Source: Thalassovita litoralis (GTDB taxonomy: Bacteria; Pseudomonadota; Alphaproteobacteria; Rhodobacterales; Rhodobacteraceae). From it: DNA of 64,000 bases. The stretch is taken from assembly GCF_900182725.1 (NCBI RefSeq), contig NZ_FXTO01000004.1:62001-126000 (forward strand), given 5' to 3'. A program made the translations under genes and the position numbers. A model generated the notes under the pieces. It did not search any database. It was not told where the DNA came from and saw nothing but the letters and a program-made list of their open reading frames with translations. Positions 14,955-63,650 of the stretch are shown in pieces; within the stretch, counting starts at the first letter, position 1; every line of letters starts with the position of its first letter.

Positions 14955-16499
14955 ATGAGCGAACAGGCGGTACGCAGACGGACCAGAGGCGGCGGCGGGG
15001 CAGCCCGGCGGGCAGAGCGCAGCGCAGTGTCTTTTGAAACCGCGCGTTTCATCGAACGCAACATCCCCAATCTGGAGATGCTGAACGAAGAGGCGCTGGA
15101 AATCATCGAAACCAACGCCGAAACCATTCTACAGGAAATCGGCGTTAATTTCGTCAACAACCCCGGTGCCTTGGCGCTGTGGCGCGAGGCCGGGGCCGAT
15201 GTGGATGGCGAACGGGTGCGTATTCCGCGCGGATTGGCGCGGGAATTGTGCAAAACCGCGCCGTCATCGTTTACGCAACACGCGCGTAACCCCGAGCGCA
15301 CGGTGGCAATCGGCGGGCGCAATCTGGTGCTGGCCCCGGTTTATGGCCCGCCGTTCGTGCATGACGCCAAAGGCGGACGCCGCTATGCCACGATGGAAGA
15401 TTTCCGCAATTTCGTGAAGCTGGGCTATATGTCCAAATGGCTGCACCATTCCGGCGGCACGGTTTGCGAACCCACGGATATTCCGGTGAACAAGCGCCAT
15501 CTGGATATGCTCTATGCCCATATGACCCTGTCTGATAAGCCGTTCATGGGATCGGTGACGGAACCCAGCCGCGCACAGGATTCCGTGGATATGTGCGAGA
15601 TTCTGTTTGGCAAGGAGTTCGTACAGCAAAACACAGTGATGACATCGCTGATCAACATCAACTCGCCCCTGACGTTTGACGATGTGATGATGGGCAGCCT
15701 GGAGGTCTACGCCCGCAACAATCAGGCCTCGATCATCAGCCCGTTCATTGTGGGCGGGGCGATGGCCCCGGTGTCTGTTGCCGGTACGTTGACGCAGGTC
15801 ATGGCCGAGGTGCTGGCAGGGATCGCCTATAGCCAGTTGGTGCGCAAAGGGGCGCCGGTGATCATGGGGGCGTTTGTGACCTCGATCGACATGAATTCGG
15901 GCGCACCCACCTTTGGCACCCCGGAAGCGGCGCAGATTACCTATGGTGTGGGGCAACTGGCGCGGCGCATGGGGCTGCCGTATCGGTCCTCGGGCGGGTT
16001 TACCGGCTCGAAGTTGCCGGATGCACAGGCCGGATATGAAAGCGCCAATTCGCTGAACATGGGGCTGATGTCTGGCGTCAACTTCATGCTGCACGCCTGT
16101 GGCTGGCTAGAGGGCGGACTGGTGTCGTCCTACGAAAAATTCGTGATGGATGCCGATCAGTTGGGAACGCTGCATAAAATGGCGGCGGGCATTCCCGTGG
16201 ATGAAAACGCTCAAGCGATGGATGCGATCCGCGAGGTCGGCCCCGGTGGGCATTATCTGGGTTGCGCCCACACGCAGGAGAATTTCAAAACTGCGTTCTG
16301 GCGCACCGGCGTTCTGGATTACAAACCCTACGAAGCCTGGGCCGAGGATGGCGCGCGTGACACGATGGCGCTGGCATCCGTCAAGGTTGAAAAGATGCTG
16401 GCCGATTATGTGCAGCCCGCGATTGACCCGGCCACCGCCGAAGCGCTGGCCGCATATGTTGCGCAGAAAAAAGCATCCATGCCGGACGCATTCAGCTAA
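14955..16499 (+). CDS. trimethylamine methyltransferase (MttB) family protein
   Basis: A 514-residue member of the MttB superfamily of corrinoid-dependent methyltransferases. The frame is open throughout with no in-frame amber codon, so this is a non-pyrrolysine homologue like the glycine-betaine methyltransferases (MtgB), not true trimethylamine methyltransferase. The basic N-terminus (RRRTRGGGGAARRAER) is followed by the TIM-barrel family core (LNEEALEIIETNAETILQEI; HDAKGGRRYATMEDF). The methyl donor is probably a quaternary amine or betaine, and the acceptor a cobalamin protein not encoded next to it. A RACE-type corrinoid activator lies at 42470-44503. Confidence 0.88.
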   Translation: MSEQAVRRRTRGGGGAARRAERSAVSFETARFIERNIPNLEMLNEEALEIIETNAETILQEIGVNFVNNPGALALWREAGADVDGERVRIPRGLARELCKTAPSSFTQHARNPERTVAIGGRNLVLAPVYGPPFVHDAKGGRRYATMEDFRNFVKLGYMSKWLHHSGGTVCEPTDIPVNKRHLDMLYAHMTLSDKPFMGSVTEPSRAQDSVDMCEILFGKEFVQQNTVMTSLININSPLTFDDVMMGSLEVYARNNQASIISPFIVGGAMAPVSVAGTLTQVMAEVLAGIAYSQLVRKGAPVIMGAFVTSIDMNSGAPTFGTPEAAQITYGVGQLARRMGLPYRSSGGFTGSKLPDAQAGYESANSLNMGLMSGVNFMLHACGWLEGGLVSSYEKFVMDADQLGTLHKMAAGIPVDENAQAMDAIREVGPGGHYLGCAHTQENFKTAFWRTGVLDYKPYEAWAEDGARDTMALASVKVEKMLADYVQPAIDPATAEALAAYVAQKKASMPDAFS

Positions 16500-16803
16500 C
16501 TGGGTTTTGGGCGCGGGCGTTGTAAGAGCTGCGTAAAATCTGTGCCTCGCCCATCATGGCGATCAATAATTCTACATGCCGCGTGGGGGAATACCGCGCG
16601 GCATTTTCTTTGCGCAGGTCGTTCTGTTCGGTTTCCAGATCCATTAATTTGGCCAGCGCTGCGCCGCTGCGTGGCAGGGTGGCATCCCCCAGAATGCGGC
16701 GCAGATGAATGTCGCGGCGATATTCGGTAACTCCGAACCGGGCTGCCCGGATCAGCAAACGGGGGCGGCGGATGGTGGTCAGCAGGCTTAGCAGGTCCAT
16801 CAT
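16492..16803 (-). CDS. DUF6477 family protein
   Basis: A 103-residue protein with the DUF6477 pattern: RRPRLLIRAARFG near the N-terminus, YRRDIHLRRILG, then PRSGAALAKLMDLE and a C-terminal RHVELLIAMMGEA. No catalytic motif is visible, and it is basic and helical. The start at 16803 follows AAGGATTTTGCC; the neighbouring ATG at 16800 is equally possible. Its 3' end overlaps the convergent methyltransferase gene by eight bases. It is divergent from the DUF6456/GafA-like gene, a pairing that I recall from Rhodobacter capsulatus (rcc01866/rcc01865), suggesting a link to gene-transfer-agent control. Confidence 0.75.
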   Translation of the reverse strand: MMDLLSLLTTIRRPRLLIRAARFGVTEYRRDIHLRRILGDATLPRSGAALAKLMDLETEQNDLRKENAARYSPTRHVELLIAMMGEAQILRSSYNARAQNPVS

Positions 16804-16940
16804 GGCAAAATCCTTTTTCAGCTTTGACGGGAAACAGAATTGCACATGTTTTCGGGTGTTGCGTTCCCGGCCGTTGGGGCGAACGCAATGTTTGAGAGTT
16901 GTTCACCTTTTGGAAACAATTATTGATAAATCGGAAACTG

Positions 16941-16955
16941 TTAACCAACAGGTAA
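16941..16955 (+). promoter_or_regulatory. CtrA-like binding site
   Basis: TTAACCAACAGGTAA matches the CtrA consensus TTAA-N7-TTAA in seven of eight fixed positions, with the extended TTAACCA half-site on the left. It lies between the divergent DUF6477 and DUF6456 genes, about 85 bases before the latter. Binding is inferred from the motif only. Confidence 0.5.
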
Positions 16956-17039
16956 CAATTACACGCGTAGGTTGCGTCCTGTTCTGGGGATAAATTCGTG
17001 GAAATCCCGGACAGTATGAATGACCTAAATGGAGTCGAC

Positions 17040-18176
17040 ATGCCCCGTAGTATGATGTCCGAGTTGTGTGCCTCGTCCCTTCCGTCATGGGTGCCAGAGG
17101 ATGCGTTGCGGTATCTGGCCCATACGGAAACCGGCCTGCCGATCCGGGCGCTTGCGCGTCAGGCGGGCTGCCATGCGTCTACCGTGTTGCGACAGATCCG
17201 AAAATTGGAAAACCGCCGCGAGGATTACCTGGTGGATGAGGCGCTGTGCCGCCTGAGCCGCGAGCATTTCCAGCGGTTGCGGAAAAAGCCTCAGACCAAG
17301 GAAACGGAGACAGTCCCCATGACCGCCCCTTTGCGTATGTCACTTCCCACCGAGACCGAGCAATTTGAAAAAGAAGCTCATCGCATCTTGCGCCGCATGA
17401 CGGAATGCGGGGCGGTTCTGGCGGTGGCACAGGAAATGGAAAAAGCCGTTGTCGTGCGTGATAATGCGGATAGCGGCACCACGACACGCACGGCGGTGGT
17501 GGATCGTGAAATTGCACAGGCTATGGCGCTGAAAGGCTGGATTTCGTGCAAGGCCCCGAGCCGTATTTCGCGCTATGTGATCACGGCCGAAGGGCGCACC
17601 GCGTTGACCGAGCTGATGGCCCGGATGGAAAACCGCGCACAAAGCGGATTTGCCGAAGCACAGGCGGGTTTTGCCCCGGCGTCCTCGGGGTGGCAGGGGG
17701 ACAGCACAGAGGATCGTCGAGGTTCCGGGCGATCCCGTTACGGTGTACCGGATTCGCCGTTGATGTTGCTGGCACGGCGGCGCGATAAAGATGGGCAGCC
17801 CTTCCTGTCCGATGCCTTGGTTGCAGCAGGGGAGCGGCTGCGTGAGGATTTTGAGCTGGCTCAGATCGGTCCCAGCGTTACCCAAAACTGGGACCGTTTT
17901 CTGACCGGGCGCGACAGGTCTGGTTCGGGGCGGGGGCGGGATGTTGATGCCGGGCCTGCGGCGGCACGGGATCGGGTTGCGGCGGCACTGCGGGATCTTG
18001 GGCCGGGGCTTGGGGATATTGCCCTGCGGTGCTGTTGCTATCTGGAAGGACTGGCCAGTACGGAAAAGCGTATGGGGTGGTCCGCGCGATCCGGCAAGAT
18101 CGTGCTGCGCATCGCCCTGCAACGGTTGCGCCGTCACTATGATGAACAAGGTCAGTCCGGGCAGATGATTGGCTAA
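17040..18176 (+). CDS. gafA: DUF6456 helix-turn-helix protein, GafA-like GTA activator
   Basis: About 378 residues. Near residues 25-65 a helix-turn-helix is visible (LPIRALARQAGCHASTVLRQ), followed by a long variable centre. The DUF6456 domain lies at about 235-375 (LARRRDKDGQPFLSDALVAA; GPSVTQNWDRF; KRMGWSARSGKIVLRIALQRL), whose last part reads like a region-4-type recognition helix. In R. capsulatus the related GafA binds the GTA promoter and is controlled by CtrA and quorum sensing; the family match is from memory. The ATG at 17040 follows GGAG; a GTG at 16998 after GGGGA is a real alternative. A CtrA-like box is upstream. Confidence 0.65.
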   Translation: MPRSMMSELCASSLPSWVPEDALRYLAHTETGLPIRALARQAGCHASTVLRQIRKLENRREDYLVDEALCRLSREHFQRLRKKPQTKETETVPMTAPLRMSLPTETEQFEKEAHRILRRMTECGAVLAVAQEMEKAVVVRDNADSGTTTRTAVVDREIAQAMALKGWISCKAPSRISRYVITAEGRTALTELMARMENRAQSGFAEAQAGFAPASSGWQGDSTEDRRGSGRSRYGVPDSPLMLLARRRDKDGQPFLSDALVAAGERLREDFELAQIGPSVTQNWDRFLTGRDRSGSGRGRDVDAGPAAARDRVAAALRDLGPGLGDIALRCCCYLEGLASTEKRMGWSARSGKIVLRIALQRLRRHYDEQGQSGQMIG

Positions 18177-20981: not shown

Positions 20982-21941
20982 ATGACCAACGTGCGTGACC
21001 TCAAGATCCCCGAGCAACGGCACCCGGAAAAAGCGCATCGCGCCGATAATGCGCAGCCTAAAAAGCCAAGTTGGATTCGCGTAAAAGCGCCTGTGTCTGA
21101 TGGGTATAAGCAGACGCACAAGATCATGCGCGAAAATAAGCTGGTCACGGTCTGCGAAGAAGCGGGATGCCCGAACGCGGGGGAATGCTGGTCGCAGGGC
21201 CATGCCACCATGATGATCATGGGGGAGATTTGCACGCGCGGCTGTACCTTCTGCAATATTGCCACCGGGAAACCGCAATCGTTGGATGCGTTTGAACCGG
21301 GTCGGGTGGCGGATGCGGTGGCCAAGCTGGGGCTGAAACACGTTGTCATCACCAGCGTCGACCGCGACGATCTGGAAGATGGCGGGGCGGAACATTTCGC
21401 GCAAACCATCCGGGCGGTGCGGCATCGTTCGCCGGGGACGACGATTGAAATTCTGACCCCCGATTTCCTGAAATGTGCGCCTTCGGTTCTGGAAACCGTG
21501 GTGGCCGCCAAACCGGATGTGTTTAATCACAATCTGGAAACCGTGCCGGGGTTGTACCCCGAGGTTCGGCCCGGTGCGCGCTATTTCCATTCGCTGCGAC
21601 TGTTGCAACGGGTCAAAGAATTGGACCCGACCATGTTTACCAAATCCGGCATCATGGTGGGGCTGGGCGAAGATAAGCAATCCGTGCATCAGGTGATGGA
21701 CGACATGCGCGCGGCAGAGATTGATTTTCTGACCATCGGCCAATACCTGCAACCCACGCCAAAGCACCACGCGGTTGATCGGTTCGTGCATCCCGATGAA
21801 TTTGCAGCCTATGAAAAGGCGGCCTATGGCAAAGGGTTCCTGATGGTTTCCGCGACGCCGCTGACGCGGTCATCCTATCATGCCGGGGATGATTTCGCGC
21901 GGTTGCGGGAAAACCGGTTGGCGAAGCTGGGGATGAACTAA
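20982..21941 (+). CDS. lipA: lipoyl synthase
   Basis: A 319-residue radical-SAM enzyme that inserts two sulfurs into octanoyl groups on 2-oxoacid dehydrogenases and GcvH. The auxiliary [4Fe-4S] cysteines are in [12 protein letters not shown] (58, 63, 69), and the radical-SAM cluster is CTRGCTFC (84, 88, 91). The C-terminal part ends SSYHAGDDF-like with the conserved serine ligand in LTRSSYHA. All motifs are complete. The start may be the GTG at 20991, which has an AGGA site seven bases before it; the ATG at 20982 has poor spacing. It is convergent with a cytochrome gene. Confidence 0.97.
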
Positions 21942-61723: not shown

Positions 61724-61965
61724 CGTTGGAACCGACCACCTAAAAATGGTTCGTGGTTCGGTCCTGATATTCGCATTCTGATCGCGAATGCGTTCTGCGA
61801 GCCGTTTGCCGAACTCTCTGGTGATTGCCGCGCGTGTCTGACCTGACAAAAGGTAGCAGGGGGGGCATCTTGCAGAATGCTTGGCCGATGCTACGTGAGG
61901 GAGTAGAAAAGCAAAAAGGCCGGGCGCGGTGCGCGTTCGGCGGCACATTGGAAGGATGCGGGATC

Positions 61966-62409
61966 ATGAAGGGGCTGAAGAAAAAGCGCAGGATACAGGT
62001 GGTTGCGATTGCTGCTGTGGCTTTGGTGCTGGCAACCGGATTGATTGGATACGGGTTGCGCGACGGGATCAATTTCTTTCGCTCGCCCAGTCAGGTGATG
62101 GCGGAACCGCCGTCCGCTTCGGAAACCTTTCGGATTGGCGGGCTGGTCGAGGAAGGCAGCCTGCTGCGCGATCAGGGCGAGGTGATCCGGTTCAACGTCA
62201 CCGATGGCGGGGCGACGGTGCCTGTGGTGTTCAAGGGCATTCTGCCGGATTTGTTCGCTGAAAATCAGGGGATGATCGGCACCGGAAAATATATCAACGG
62301 CGTATTCGAAGCCTCTGAAATCCTTGCCAAACACGACGAGGATTACATGCCCAAGGAAGTGGTGGATGCGCTGAAAGAACAGGGCGTTTATCAAGATCCC
62401 AAAAGCTGA
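61966..62409 (+). CDS. ccmE: cytochrome c maturation haem chaperone CcmE
   Basis: A 147-residue inner-membrane-anchored periplasmic haem chaperone. One N-terminal helix (IQVVAIAAVALVLATGLIGYG, in parts, about 10-30) is followed by an OB-fold beta domain. The covalent haem-binding histidine is His123 in LAKHDEDYMP, with Tyr127 as axial ligand. CcmE passes haem from CcmCD to CcmF. The start follows GGAAGGATGC. Its terminator lies before the endolysin gene, and ccmF lies beyond it, so the ccm genes are split by the lysis genes. Confidence 0.95.
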   Translation: MKGLKKKRRIQVVAIAAVALVLATGLIGYGLRDGINFFRSPSQVMAEPPSASETFRIGGLVEEGSLLRDQGEVIRFNVTDGGATVPVVFKGILPDLFAENQGMIGTGKYINGVFEASEILAKHDEDYMPKEVVDALKEQGVYQDPKS

Positions 62410-62497: not shown

Positions 62498-62505
62498 GGT
62501 TAACC
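62498..62505. promoter_or_regulatory. GGTTAACC palindrome, possible CtrA half-sites
   Basis: GGTTAACC contains one CtrA half-site (TTAACC) on each strand but no second half-site at the expected spacing. It lies 46 bases upstream of the endolysin ATG. Suggestive only. Confidence 0.25.
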
Positions 62506-62550: not shown

Positions 62551-63162
62551 ATGCAGACAGTCAGGCAATTGGCAGAAGAGACTATCGGGCGCGAAGGGGG
62601 CTATGTGAACGACCCGGACGATCCGGGCGGGGCCACGAATTTCGGGGTGACGGTGGGCACGATGCGACGGTTGGGGCTGGACCTGACCGGCGACGGGCTG
62701 GTGGATGCAGAGGATGTGAAAATCCTGTCGCGGGACCAAGCGGTGCAGATTTTCCTGCGCGACTATTACGAAAAGCCCCGGATCGCTAGCCTGCCCGAAG
62801 TGCTGCGGGCGTCGGTTTTTGATATGTATGTCAATGCGGGATCGAATGCAGTGAAAATCCTGCAACGGCTGTTGCGCCAGATGGGAGAAGCGGTGGCTGA
62901 GGATGGGGTGATCGGGCCGTTGACGGCTGCGGCGGCCTATCGCGCGGCGCAGGTGGCCCCGGCTTATCTGGCGGATGCGTATGGAATTGCACGGCGGAAT
63001 TACTATTTCGCGCTGGCGGATGCGCGACCTGCATCCCGGAAATACGCGGTCAGCCGGGCCGGGGGCAAAGGCGGCTGGATCAGGCGGGCCGAAGACTTTA
63101 TTTCGCCGCGCTATCATCTGAGCGAGGCGGCATTTCGGCAAAGGATTTCGGCATGGGGATGA
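62551..63162 (+). CDS. GH108 endolysin (GTA-type)
   Basis: A 203-residue glycoside hydrolase family 108 protein, an N-acetylmuramidase that cuts peptidoglycan. The catalytic Glu15 lies in GREGGYVNDPDDPGGATNFG (about 13-32). The second domain is a peptidoglycan-binding_3 type (FDMYVNAGSNAVKILQRLL; DGVIGPLT). It lacks a signal peptide, as expected for a holin-dependent endolysin. The Rhodobacter GTA endolysin (rcc00555) is, as I recall, of this kind. The ATG is preceded by only a weak GGGGTG site. Its stop overlaps the holin gene by ten bases. Confidence 0.88.
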   Translation: MQTVRQLAEETIGREGGYVNDPDDPGGATNFGVTVGTMRRLGLDLTGDGLVDAEDVKILSRDQAVQIFLRDYYEKPRIASLPEVLRASVFDMYVNAGSNAVKILQRLLRQMGEAVAEDGVIGPLTAAAAYRAAQVAPAYLADAYGIARRNYYFALADARPASRKYAVSRAGGKGGWIRRAEDFISPRYHLSEAAFRQRISAWG

Positions 63163-63650
63163 TGATGCGGGCAATGGAGATGCTGTTTGGCGACGGGCGC
63201 AATCTGATACAGAACACCGCCGAGGTGTTTCGGGTGAATGCCGAAGATGAAGCGGCGCGGCGCGTGGTCTTGCAGCAGGCGGCGCTGGAGCAGTTCGGGG
63301 CGGAATTCGCCCAGCCGCGCAAGGGGGTATTTGATCGGATGGTGGACGGGCTGAACAGGTTGCCGCGCCCCGGTCTGGCGCTGGGAACGCTGGCACTGTT
63401 CATTGGCGCGATGGTGGACCCTGCGTGGTTTGCTGCCCGAATGGAAGGCATCGCCTTGGTGCCGGAACCGCTGTGGTGGTTGCTGGGGGTGATCGTGTCT
63501 TTTTATTTCGGCGCACGTCACCAAGCCAAGGGGCAGGAGTTTCAGACCCGCGTGCTGCGCGACCTGTCCATGCGGTCCGGCGCAGTCCCACCCGAGGAGA
63601 ACGCGGCGCTAAGCGATTGGCAGGCGCAGGGGGCGCTGGCAGGCCGGTAA
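63153..63650 (+). CDS. GTA holin, three-transmembrane type (GTA_holin_3TM-like)
   Basis: A 165-residue holin-like membrane protein. Two strong hydrophobic segments are seen, LALGTLALFIGAMVDPAWF (about 75-93) and LWWLLGVIVSFYFGA (about 109-123), with a possible third weaker segment at the N-terminus. The motif PRPGLALGTLALF followed by FGARHQAKGQEFQTR closely matches the three-helix holin family named for gene-transfer-agent release. The start at 63153 has AAGGA seven bases before it; the internal ATG at 63159 gives an ATGA overlap. It would make the membrane pore that lets the GH108 endolysin reach the wall. Confidence 0.85.
   Translation: MGMMMRAMEMLFGDGRNLIQNTAEVFRVNAEDEAARRVVLQQAALEQFGAEFAQPRKGVFDRMVDGLNRLPRPGLALGTLALFIGAMVDPAWFAARMEGIALVPEPLWWLLGVIVSFYFGARHQAKGQEFQTRVLRDLSMRSGAVPPEENAALSDWQAQGALAGR

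Follow-up and report, generated by a model that had tools for sequence, protein, structure and literature searches.

The gafA control locus

The DNA studied here is a stretch of 64,000 nucleotides (nt) of the genome of Thalassovita litoralis (contig NZ_FXTO01000004.1, positions 62,001 to 126,000), called the window from here on, which carries two divergent genes: gafA, coding for a GafA-like regulator, and a small gene coding for a DUF6477 protein. Judged on its sequence, this locus is a control pair of gafA/rcc01866 type belonging to a gene transfer agent (GTA) of the RcGTA type, that is, a known kind of locus. The structural genes of this GTA are located on two other contigs, and the promoter of their operon contains a conserved element between -35 and -10 followed by a terminator-like leader hairpin, an arrangement which suggests that GafA probably acts partly by antitermination. 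The features of the control locus are the following (window positions):

16492..16803, minus strand: gene of the DUF6477 protein (rcc01866-type), 102-103 amino acids, PF20083 E 6e-35
16804..17015, no strand assigned: divergent promoter region shared by gafA and the DUF6477 gene
16941..16956, plus strand: CtrA-type site TTAAC-N6-GTAAC, exact match, 59 nt before the gafA ATG at 17016
17016..18176, plus strand: gafA, with an N-terminal helix-turn-helix (HTH), a central winged-helix-like domain and a C-terminal sigma-4-like DUF6456 domain

The best start of gafA is the ATG at 17016, which gives a protein of 386 amino acids in a frame that is open from the GTG at 16998. The DUF6477 frame is open from 16492 to 16845 (up to a GTG at 16845), its likelier start being the ATG at 16800 or at 16803. 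An earlier note, made from the letters of the window, had proposed that the plus-strand protein combines an HTH with DUF6456, that its divergent neighbour is a DUF6477 protein and that the pair controls a GTA. Profile searches bear out these assignments: DUF6456 (PF20057) is matched almost end to end by residues 247-383 of GafA (E 1.3e-62, profile 2-136 of 136), an HTH_IclR match over the profile cut-off covers residues 37-73 (E 2e-5), and the likeness to GafA goes beyond a generic HTH, as indicated by the full DUF6456 domain, the divergent DUF6477 gene, the CtrA site, which the note had not mentioned, and lipA close by (20982-21941). Membership of the GafA family rests here on family profile, synteny, promoter and structure rather than on direct comparison with the GafA of Rhodobacter capsulatus, and rcc01866 is taken to be a DUF6477 gene from its position.

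The R. capsulatus locus (gafA is rcc01865, beside rcc01866) shows the same plan, with a DUF6456/HTH protein, a small divergent partner, the site TTAAC-N6-GTAAC and lipA nearby; Fogg (2019) reported that the same CtrA site of the gafA promoter is bound by CtrA, and noted the synteny with lipA (PMC6363796). In both organisms the lysis cassette and the structural cluster are at separate loci, whereas the structural cluster of the present genome is broken by an insertion sequence and an inversion.

A survey of 148 loci (67 from a genome search, 80 from further named relatives, and the window; some genomes are counted twice) showed gafA and the DUF6477 gene together in 139, divergent in 139 of 139. 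The nine remaining loci lack a detectable DUF6477 gene or the N-terminus of gafA, and three of these nine start inside gafA or at most 300 nt from it. The gafA alignment retained 43 of 67 rows, after exclusion of duplicates, odd lengths and one row with an internal stop. Among 123 distinct gafA-DUF6477 intergenic regions, 51 have the CtrA site exactly (0 of 1230 mononucleotide shuffles) and 82 have it with at most one mismatch (7 of 1230 shuffles); in reverse orientation it occurs exactly in none and with at most one mismatch in five. Other conserved blocks of these regions are ACAA-N9-GTGT (56/123) with GTGTTGCG (67/123), on the DUF6477 side, GTTT-N12-CAAT (53/123) and GTAA-N14-GGTT (50/123).

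Promoter element of the GTA operon

The RcGTA-type cluster of this genome is divided between contig C17 (small and large terminase, and portal) and contig C35 (the remainder, from the protease through a megatron of 1325 amino acids). The promoter of the operon was studied in the regions upstream of the large terminase, taken from this genome and from 85 stretches picked from GTA_TIM or capsid hits (86 loci in total). A terminase match was obtained for 82 loci (four were without it), one of which had too little upstream sequence, so that 81 regions were compared.

A TTGA[CT] motif lies 44-79 nt before the leader hairpin, mostly at 53-54 nt, in 56 of the 81 regions, compared with 5 of 55 in a control window farther upstream. 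The logo of these 56 regions reads TTGAC-N4-C84%G91%-NN-C95%G93%-N-T80%C75%-N5-T95%A96%, and the conservation of the spacer between -35 and -10 comes near that of the -10 itself. When allowed up to two mismatches, the pattern TTGAC-N4-CGNNCG-N-TC-N5-TA is found in 54/81 regions and in 1/405 mononucleotide-shuffled ones. Because this pattern derives from the same regions, they were split into a first and a later-fetched set, which contain the full element in 29/44 and 25/37 cases, respectively; the shorter form TTGAC.{7,9}CGGTC, noticed in the first set, is present in 17/44 and 7/37 (shuffled, 0/440 and 0/370). The element of the genome itself is exact (C17:3358-3382, minus strand). Downstream of the -10 there is a further sequence of the CATGCTAGAAGA type, with 38-91% conservation per base when ungapped, six positions of at least 90% in the alignment and, by eye, a likeness to an extended -10. 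Promoter-proximal sigma-dependent pause elements are a feature of Q-type antitermination.

It was also considered whether the element is a general GafA box, and this was rejected: TTGAC.{7,9}CGGTC occurs in 18/45 GTA promoters, in 0/123 gafA promoters and in 0/31 lysis promoters, so the element seems to be specific to the GTA operon. Within the 64-kb window the full pattern is not found at up to one mismatch.

Leader hairpin

In the genome's own operon the leader hairpin is at C17:3298-3328 and the first gene, g1, starts at C17:3243. A terminator-like hairpin is present on the sense strand of 70 of the 81 regions, on the antisense strand of 21 and in 100 of 324 dinucleotide shuffles. Its position relative to the promoter is nearly constant: in 52 of the 54 element-bearing regions it follows the -10 at a distance of 19-48 nt (28-29 nt in 28 regions). 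Of the other two regions, one has a hairpin upstream only and one has none. In a further comparison, such hairpins were found in 33/45 GTA leaders (41/450 shuffles), while gafA leaders (16/123; shuffles 112/1230) and lysis leaders (4/31; shuffles 29/310) gave counts near background.

The stem also appears to be maintained by compensatory changes. In a MAFFT alignment of 55 leaders, which was not fitted to the structure (one of the 56 leaders was excluded for its length), the 7-bp stem is paired in 86.5% of cases (shuffled, 78.9 +/- 1.0) and contains 33 double changes, compared with 12.2 +/- 3.3 in shuffles, none of 500 being equal. Sliding the stem by 1-3 columns lowers the pairing and covariation scores, but the slide of -2 has 17 further pair types, compared with 16 for the stem itself. 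The leaders of two congeners fold at z -4.6 and -3.9. No Rfam family was matched at E <= 0.1 in seven loci.

Proposed mode of action of GafA

The AlphaFold model of GafA (mean predicted local distance difference test score, pLDDT, 81.7) was compared with known structures by VIA-align, and all the scores obtained are modest: residues 4-88 resemble DnaA (3r8f, Z 6.8), residues 106-217 are PadR-like (Z up to 8.1) and residues 301-385 resemble sigma region 4 (Z up to 8.7). The central domain (106-217), which the literature gives as being of unknown function, thus resembles PadR-type winged helices in the model. A sequence search of the PDB with GafA returned nothing below E 0.14, and a Foldseek search with the model found no match there at E <= 0.001. 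As far as a predicted structure can tell, the protein fits the properties of an antiterminator.

A related protein is GafZ of Caulobacter crescentus, which shares homology with the C-terminal portion of GafA. Tran and Le (2024) showed that GafZ works as an antiterminator and, like lambda Q, has its site between -10 and -35 (PMC11150451). The same authors give the GafA elements as unmapped at nucleotide resolution, and raise an unrecognised antitermination activity as a possibility (PMC11150451). Sherlock and Fogg (2022) reported that the C-terminal part of GafA binds a promoter fragment containing the -10, the -35 and the transcription start site (PMC9638019).

In Caulobacter, as here, a site between -10 and -35 is followed by a terminator. 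The Caulobacter system uses two proteins (GafY and GafZ) where this one has a single GafA, and its terminator, a repeat array, comes after the first gene; here a single leader hairpin precedes g1. Late-gene antitermination by lambda Q is alike in having an element within the promoter, an intrinsic terminator nearby (tR', which is near the promoter) and a phage-type structural operon downstream. The likeness to lambda comes from the layout of the sequences: no sequence relation to Q is shown, and GafA has DnaA-like and sigma-4-like domains.

The element and the leader hairpin match what Q-type antitermination predicts, and the following scheme is proposed. CtrA would bind upstream of gafA and drive its expression (the site is seen here, and its binding is taken from R. 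capsulatus). GafA would then act on the promoter of the GTA operon, on the separate contig C17, where its sigma-4-like C-terminus may recognise the CGNNCGNTC element between -35 and -10 and where GafA may load onto RNA polymerase in early elongation. The GafA-loaded polymerase would pass the leader hairpin terminator, as polymerase does with GafZ in Caulobacter and with Q in lambda. Recruitment via the omega subunit of RNA polymerase, as published for R. capsulatus, may act too. The scheme as a whole, from CtrA to GafA and to antitermination loaded at the element, with the DUF6477 protein on the CtrA side, is considered likely. Its central part, namely that GafA is a Q-type antiterminator and that a short leader transcript halts at the conserved hairpin unless promoter-loaded GafA carries the polymerase through, is given somewhat better than even chances. 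The element, the hairpin, their spacing and the compensatory changes are read directly from the nucleotides, and from them we infer the binding of GafA and antitermination.

Several observations weigh against this proposal. The element is missing in 27 of the 81 regions, of which 17 have the hairpin only and 10 neither, and four of the seven promoters of the genus are without the full layout (G002, G006 and G007 have neither part, and G003 has the hairpin only; both are present in G000, the genome studied here, and in G005 and G008). The layout is thus common, not universal. The regions were chosen by hand from GTA_TIM and capsid hits and share common ancestry, so that the counts are not independent, and the final pattern of the element was itself derived from 56 of these regions, through their logo. 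With respect to the hairpin, shuffled 400-nt regions give such a structure in about 31% of cases; the folding of the genome's own leader is moderate (z -2.1, 7 of 200 shuffles being as good); a generic terminator scan missed its hairpin, whose stem is bulged; and RNAalifold predicted no pairs in the same MAFFT alignment, perhaps because the loop lengths vary. Finally, omega is essential for the action of GafA in R. capsulatus: omega is a direct binding partner of GafA there, and no RcGTA is produced once rpoZ has been deleted (PMC9638019).

This last point leads to the first alternative, in which GafA acts in the conventional way, by recruiting polymerase through omega; the spacer element would then be no more than the place where it binds, and the hairpin would be a terminator or attenuator that answers to something else. 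Besides the omega data, it agrees with this view that the words terminator and antitermination are absent from the main texts of both GafA papers. On the other hand, neither the joint occurrence of the element and a hairpin downstream of it at nearly constant spacing (52/54) nor the antitermination by the homologous GafZ, from a site at the corresponding position, would be expected of a conventional activator. We regard this alternative as doubtful.

In the second alternative the hairpin is not a terminator: it would stabilise the 5' untranslated region or control the translation of g1. Leader hairpins can protect mRNA, as is generally known, and a second inverted repeat (CTCTCGTGC ... GCATGAGAG) seems, by eye, to precede g1 in many leaders. 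Such a role is improbable, given that a T-run of at least 4 follows the hairpin in 41/56 leaders, that the hairpin is biased to the sense strand (70 versus 21 of 81) and that its distance from the promoter is steady (28/52 at 28-29 nt), whereas that from the start codon varies between 24 and 80 nt.

No leader terminator of a Rhodobacterales GTA is described in the passages of PMC13236601, PMC11841831, PMC11409702, PMC9690577 and PMC6854486. Nor was such a terminator found in the titles and abstract openings of work on GTA antitermination, a search to which most subscription papers were external. Antitermination in the Bartonella GTA is reportedly the subject of a 2025 eLife paper. If GafA does work as an antiterminator, the GTA switch of the Rhodobacterales would share with that of Caulobacter a phage-like logic of late gene expression, and the element and the leader hairpin provide the exact sites at which antitermination by GafA can be tested.

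The DUF6477 protein and related phage genes

The model of the DUF6477 protein consists of five helices (pLDDT 91), and the alignment of 51 sequences (out of 64 rows, duplicates and badly bounded rows being excluded) has 10 invariant residues. Comparison of the model with the PDB gave no match at E <= 0.001, and with VIA-align Z was at most 5.7, below what can be interpreted. The name DUF6477 was not found in the literature searched. In R. capsulatus the knockout of rcc01866 gives immature particles and no detectable lysis, like that of cckA (Hynes 2016, as cited in PMC9638019). The DUF6477 protein would probably take part in maturation and lysis, on the side of CtrA. This is the weakest step of the scheme; that the protein acts with CtrA at the late genes is a tentative proposal, with less than even chances.

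The only convincing viral match for DUF6477 is a 72-amino acid protein of the Roseobacter phage RDJL Phi 2 (Foldseek probability 1.00, E 0.04); a scan of viral contigs gave no confirmed relative and tblastn found none in phages at E 0.01. In this phage the genes gp33, gp32 and gp31 follow each other closely: a gafA-like gene (hhalign E 3e-15) lies upstream of a gene for a CtrA DNA-binding domain and of the DUF6477-like gene (hhalign E 7e-8), the last two overlapping by 4 nt. The CtrA-domain gene, which corresponds to the C-terminal part only, matches the Rhodobacterales CtrA model at E 8e-26, below the cut-off. The arrangement differs from that of the window, since in the phage genome the genes are on the same strand, a CtrA fragment stands between them and the DUF6477-like protein is short. 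This three-gene set in such phages had already been pointed out by Fogg (PMC6363796).

A DUF6456-like gene is also present in MW462191.1, filed as a freshwater phage. It was rejected as a gafA-carrying phage: the gene is preceded by a DNA-binding gene and followed by that of a sulfur acceptor protein, and these neighbours match the synteny published for Hyphomicrobiales chromosomes, where the three genes are adjacent (PMC9638019), so that the contig is treated as probably bacterial.

State of the structural cluster

The earlier note had predicted a GTA cluster elsewhere in the genome, functional or remnant. A search of the full genome, a draft assembly of 81 contigs, did reveal portal, terminase and capsid pieces on C17 and C35, and of the two options "remnant" fits better than "functional", for the cluster is broken. 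The families of g1-g15 are in order (terL, portal, protease, capsid pieces, connector, tail, tape measure, hub, NlpC and megatron); the RcGTA tape measure, megatron, hub and distal-tail families were matched, as were portal, terminase, connector and tail families, and the GTA_TIM profile gave E 5e-154. The g1 of this cluster has no profile match.

Two rearrangements were found. At their left ends C17 and C35 carry the two ends of a single insertion sequence, which has CTAG on both sides, and gene order together with this shared sequence suggests that the two contigs are adjacent. The insertion sequence is tentatively assigned to the IS5 family by the residues at either end of its transposase. 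Copies of its left end, 99-100% identical, are present at 27 places of the genome (C17:1-135 and 26 others), and 14 of these copies lie at base 1 of a contig. Such near-identical copies indicate a recent burst of the insertion sequence in this genome. The second rearrangement is an inversion of about 0.94 kb (C35 ~571-1508) relative to the six congeners, out of six, that have a GTA capsid. It cuts the capsid gene, whose profile is matched on the minus strand for positions 1-161 and on the plus strand for 154-280, and it also takes off the end of the protease, so that the intact major capsid gene that particles need is absent from this assembly. The other structural genes scanned are open frames, from which the damage appears to be recent. 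Given the insertion and the inversion, the strain as assembled is unlikely to make particles.

The inversion could instead be an assembly artefact or a reversible switch, in which case the strain would make GTA particles normally. The assembly is a draft in which a repeat already divides the cluster, and both capsid halves are still open frames close to those of relatives. The inverted segment, however, is internal to its contig and collinear in all the congeners mentioned, and the breakpoints show no inverted repeat beyond chance: the best local match there is 7, compared with a mean of 7.24 for random pairs, of which 207/300 were as good. The breakpoints thus point neither to a mis-join at a k-mer nor to a known invertase. 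This possibility is considered unlikely. As read from the assembly, the regulators of this genome are intact while its structural machine is broken, which would represent a route of GTA loss in which the structure goes before the switch.

An HK97 capsid on contig C38 was considered as a second GTA and rejected, because a different terminase adjoins it. It was taken to be part of a separate prophage remnant (C38:3908-8728) with its own terminase, the capsid being 39% identical to the GTA capsid of a congener.

Distribution in the family

The family sample comprised 149 genomes, the named relatives being mostly labelled as Rhodobacteraceae or as one of its genera. gafA was found in 137, DUF6477 in 133 and both in 132, whereas GTA_TIM was matched in 129 and GTA_holin_3TM in 127. 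gafA and GTA_TIM are strongly associated (both in 127 genomes, neither in 10; Fisher P 1e-8). That the pair is an orphan with another role, unconnected to GTA production, is very improbable in view of this association and of the only two genomes with GTA_TIM and no gafA being 82% and 73% complete, even if 21 of the 137 gafA genomes are without full-length GTA_TIM ("full-length" as judged by E-value among the matches listed), 10 are without any match, and the congener G004 keeps gafA and the holin with no match for capsid, GTA_TIM or DUF6477.

Weaker GTA_TIM matches recur across many genera, with best E values of about 1e-38 to 1e-41 (for example in G040, G051, G063, G078, G086, G099, G111, G144, G146, G147 and G151, and also in G001, the one whose extent is known, profile 204-299). 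They possibly correspond to a related tail protein or to a common remnant. Decay within the genus is seen in G004, described above, and also in G001, where a frame change splits gafA, the megatron is partial and a capsid match is missing, and in G006, which keeps capsid and GTA_TIM, with no DUF6477 detected within about 850 nt beside gafA.

Lysis cassette

The endolysin/holin cassette that the earlier note had placed near the end of the window is real, and consists of the following:

62500..62505, plus strand: CtrA half-site-like TTAACC, 51 nt before the endolysin start
62551..63162, plus strand: GTA endolysin with Glyco_hydro_108 (GH108) and the peptidoglycan-binding PG_binding_3 domain (E 5e-25 and 1e-20); PHROG endolysin
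63153..63650, plus strand: GTA holin (GTA_holin_3TM, PF11351), E 7e-28

Half-sites before the endolysin are known in R. capsulatus (PMC9638019). In 26 of 31 lysis loci the 100 nt just ahead of the endolysin contain TTAAC, compared with 25 of 620 mononucleotide shuffles. The cassette is directly preceded by a gene with a CcmE C-terminal motif (61825-62409 in the window), as it is in 21 of the 31 lysis loci.

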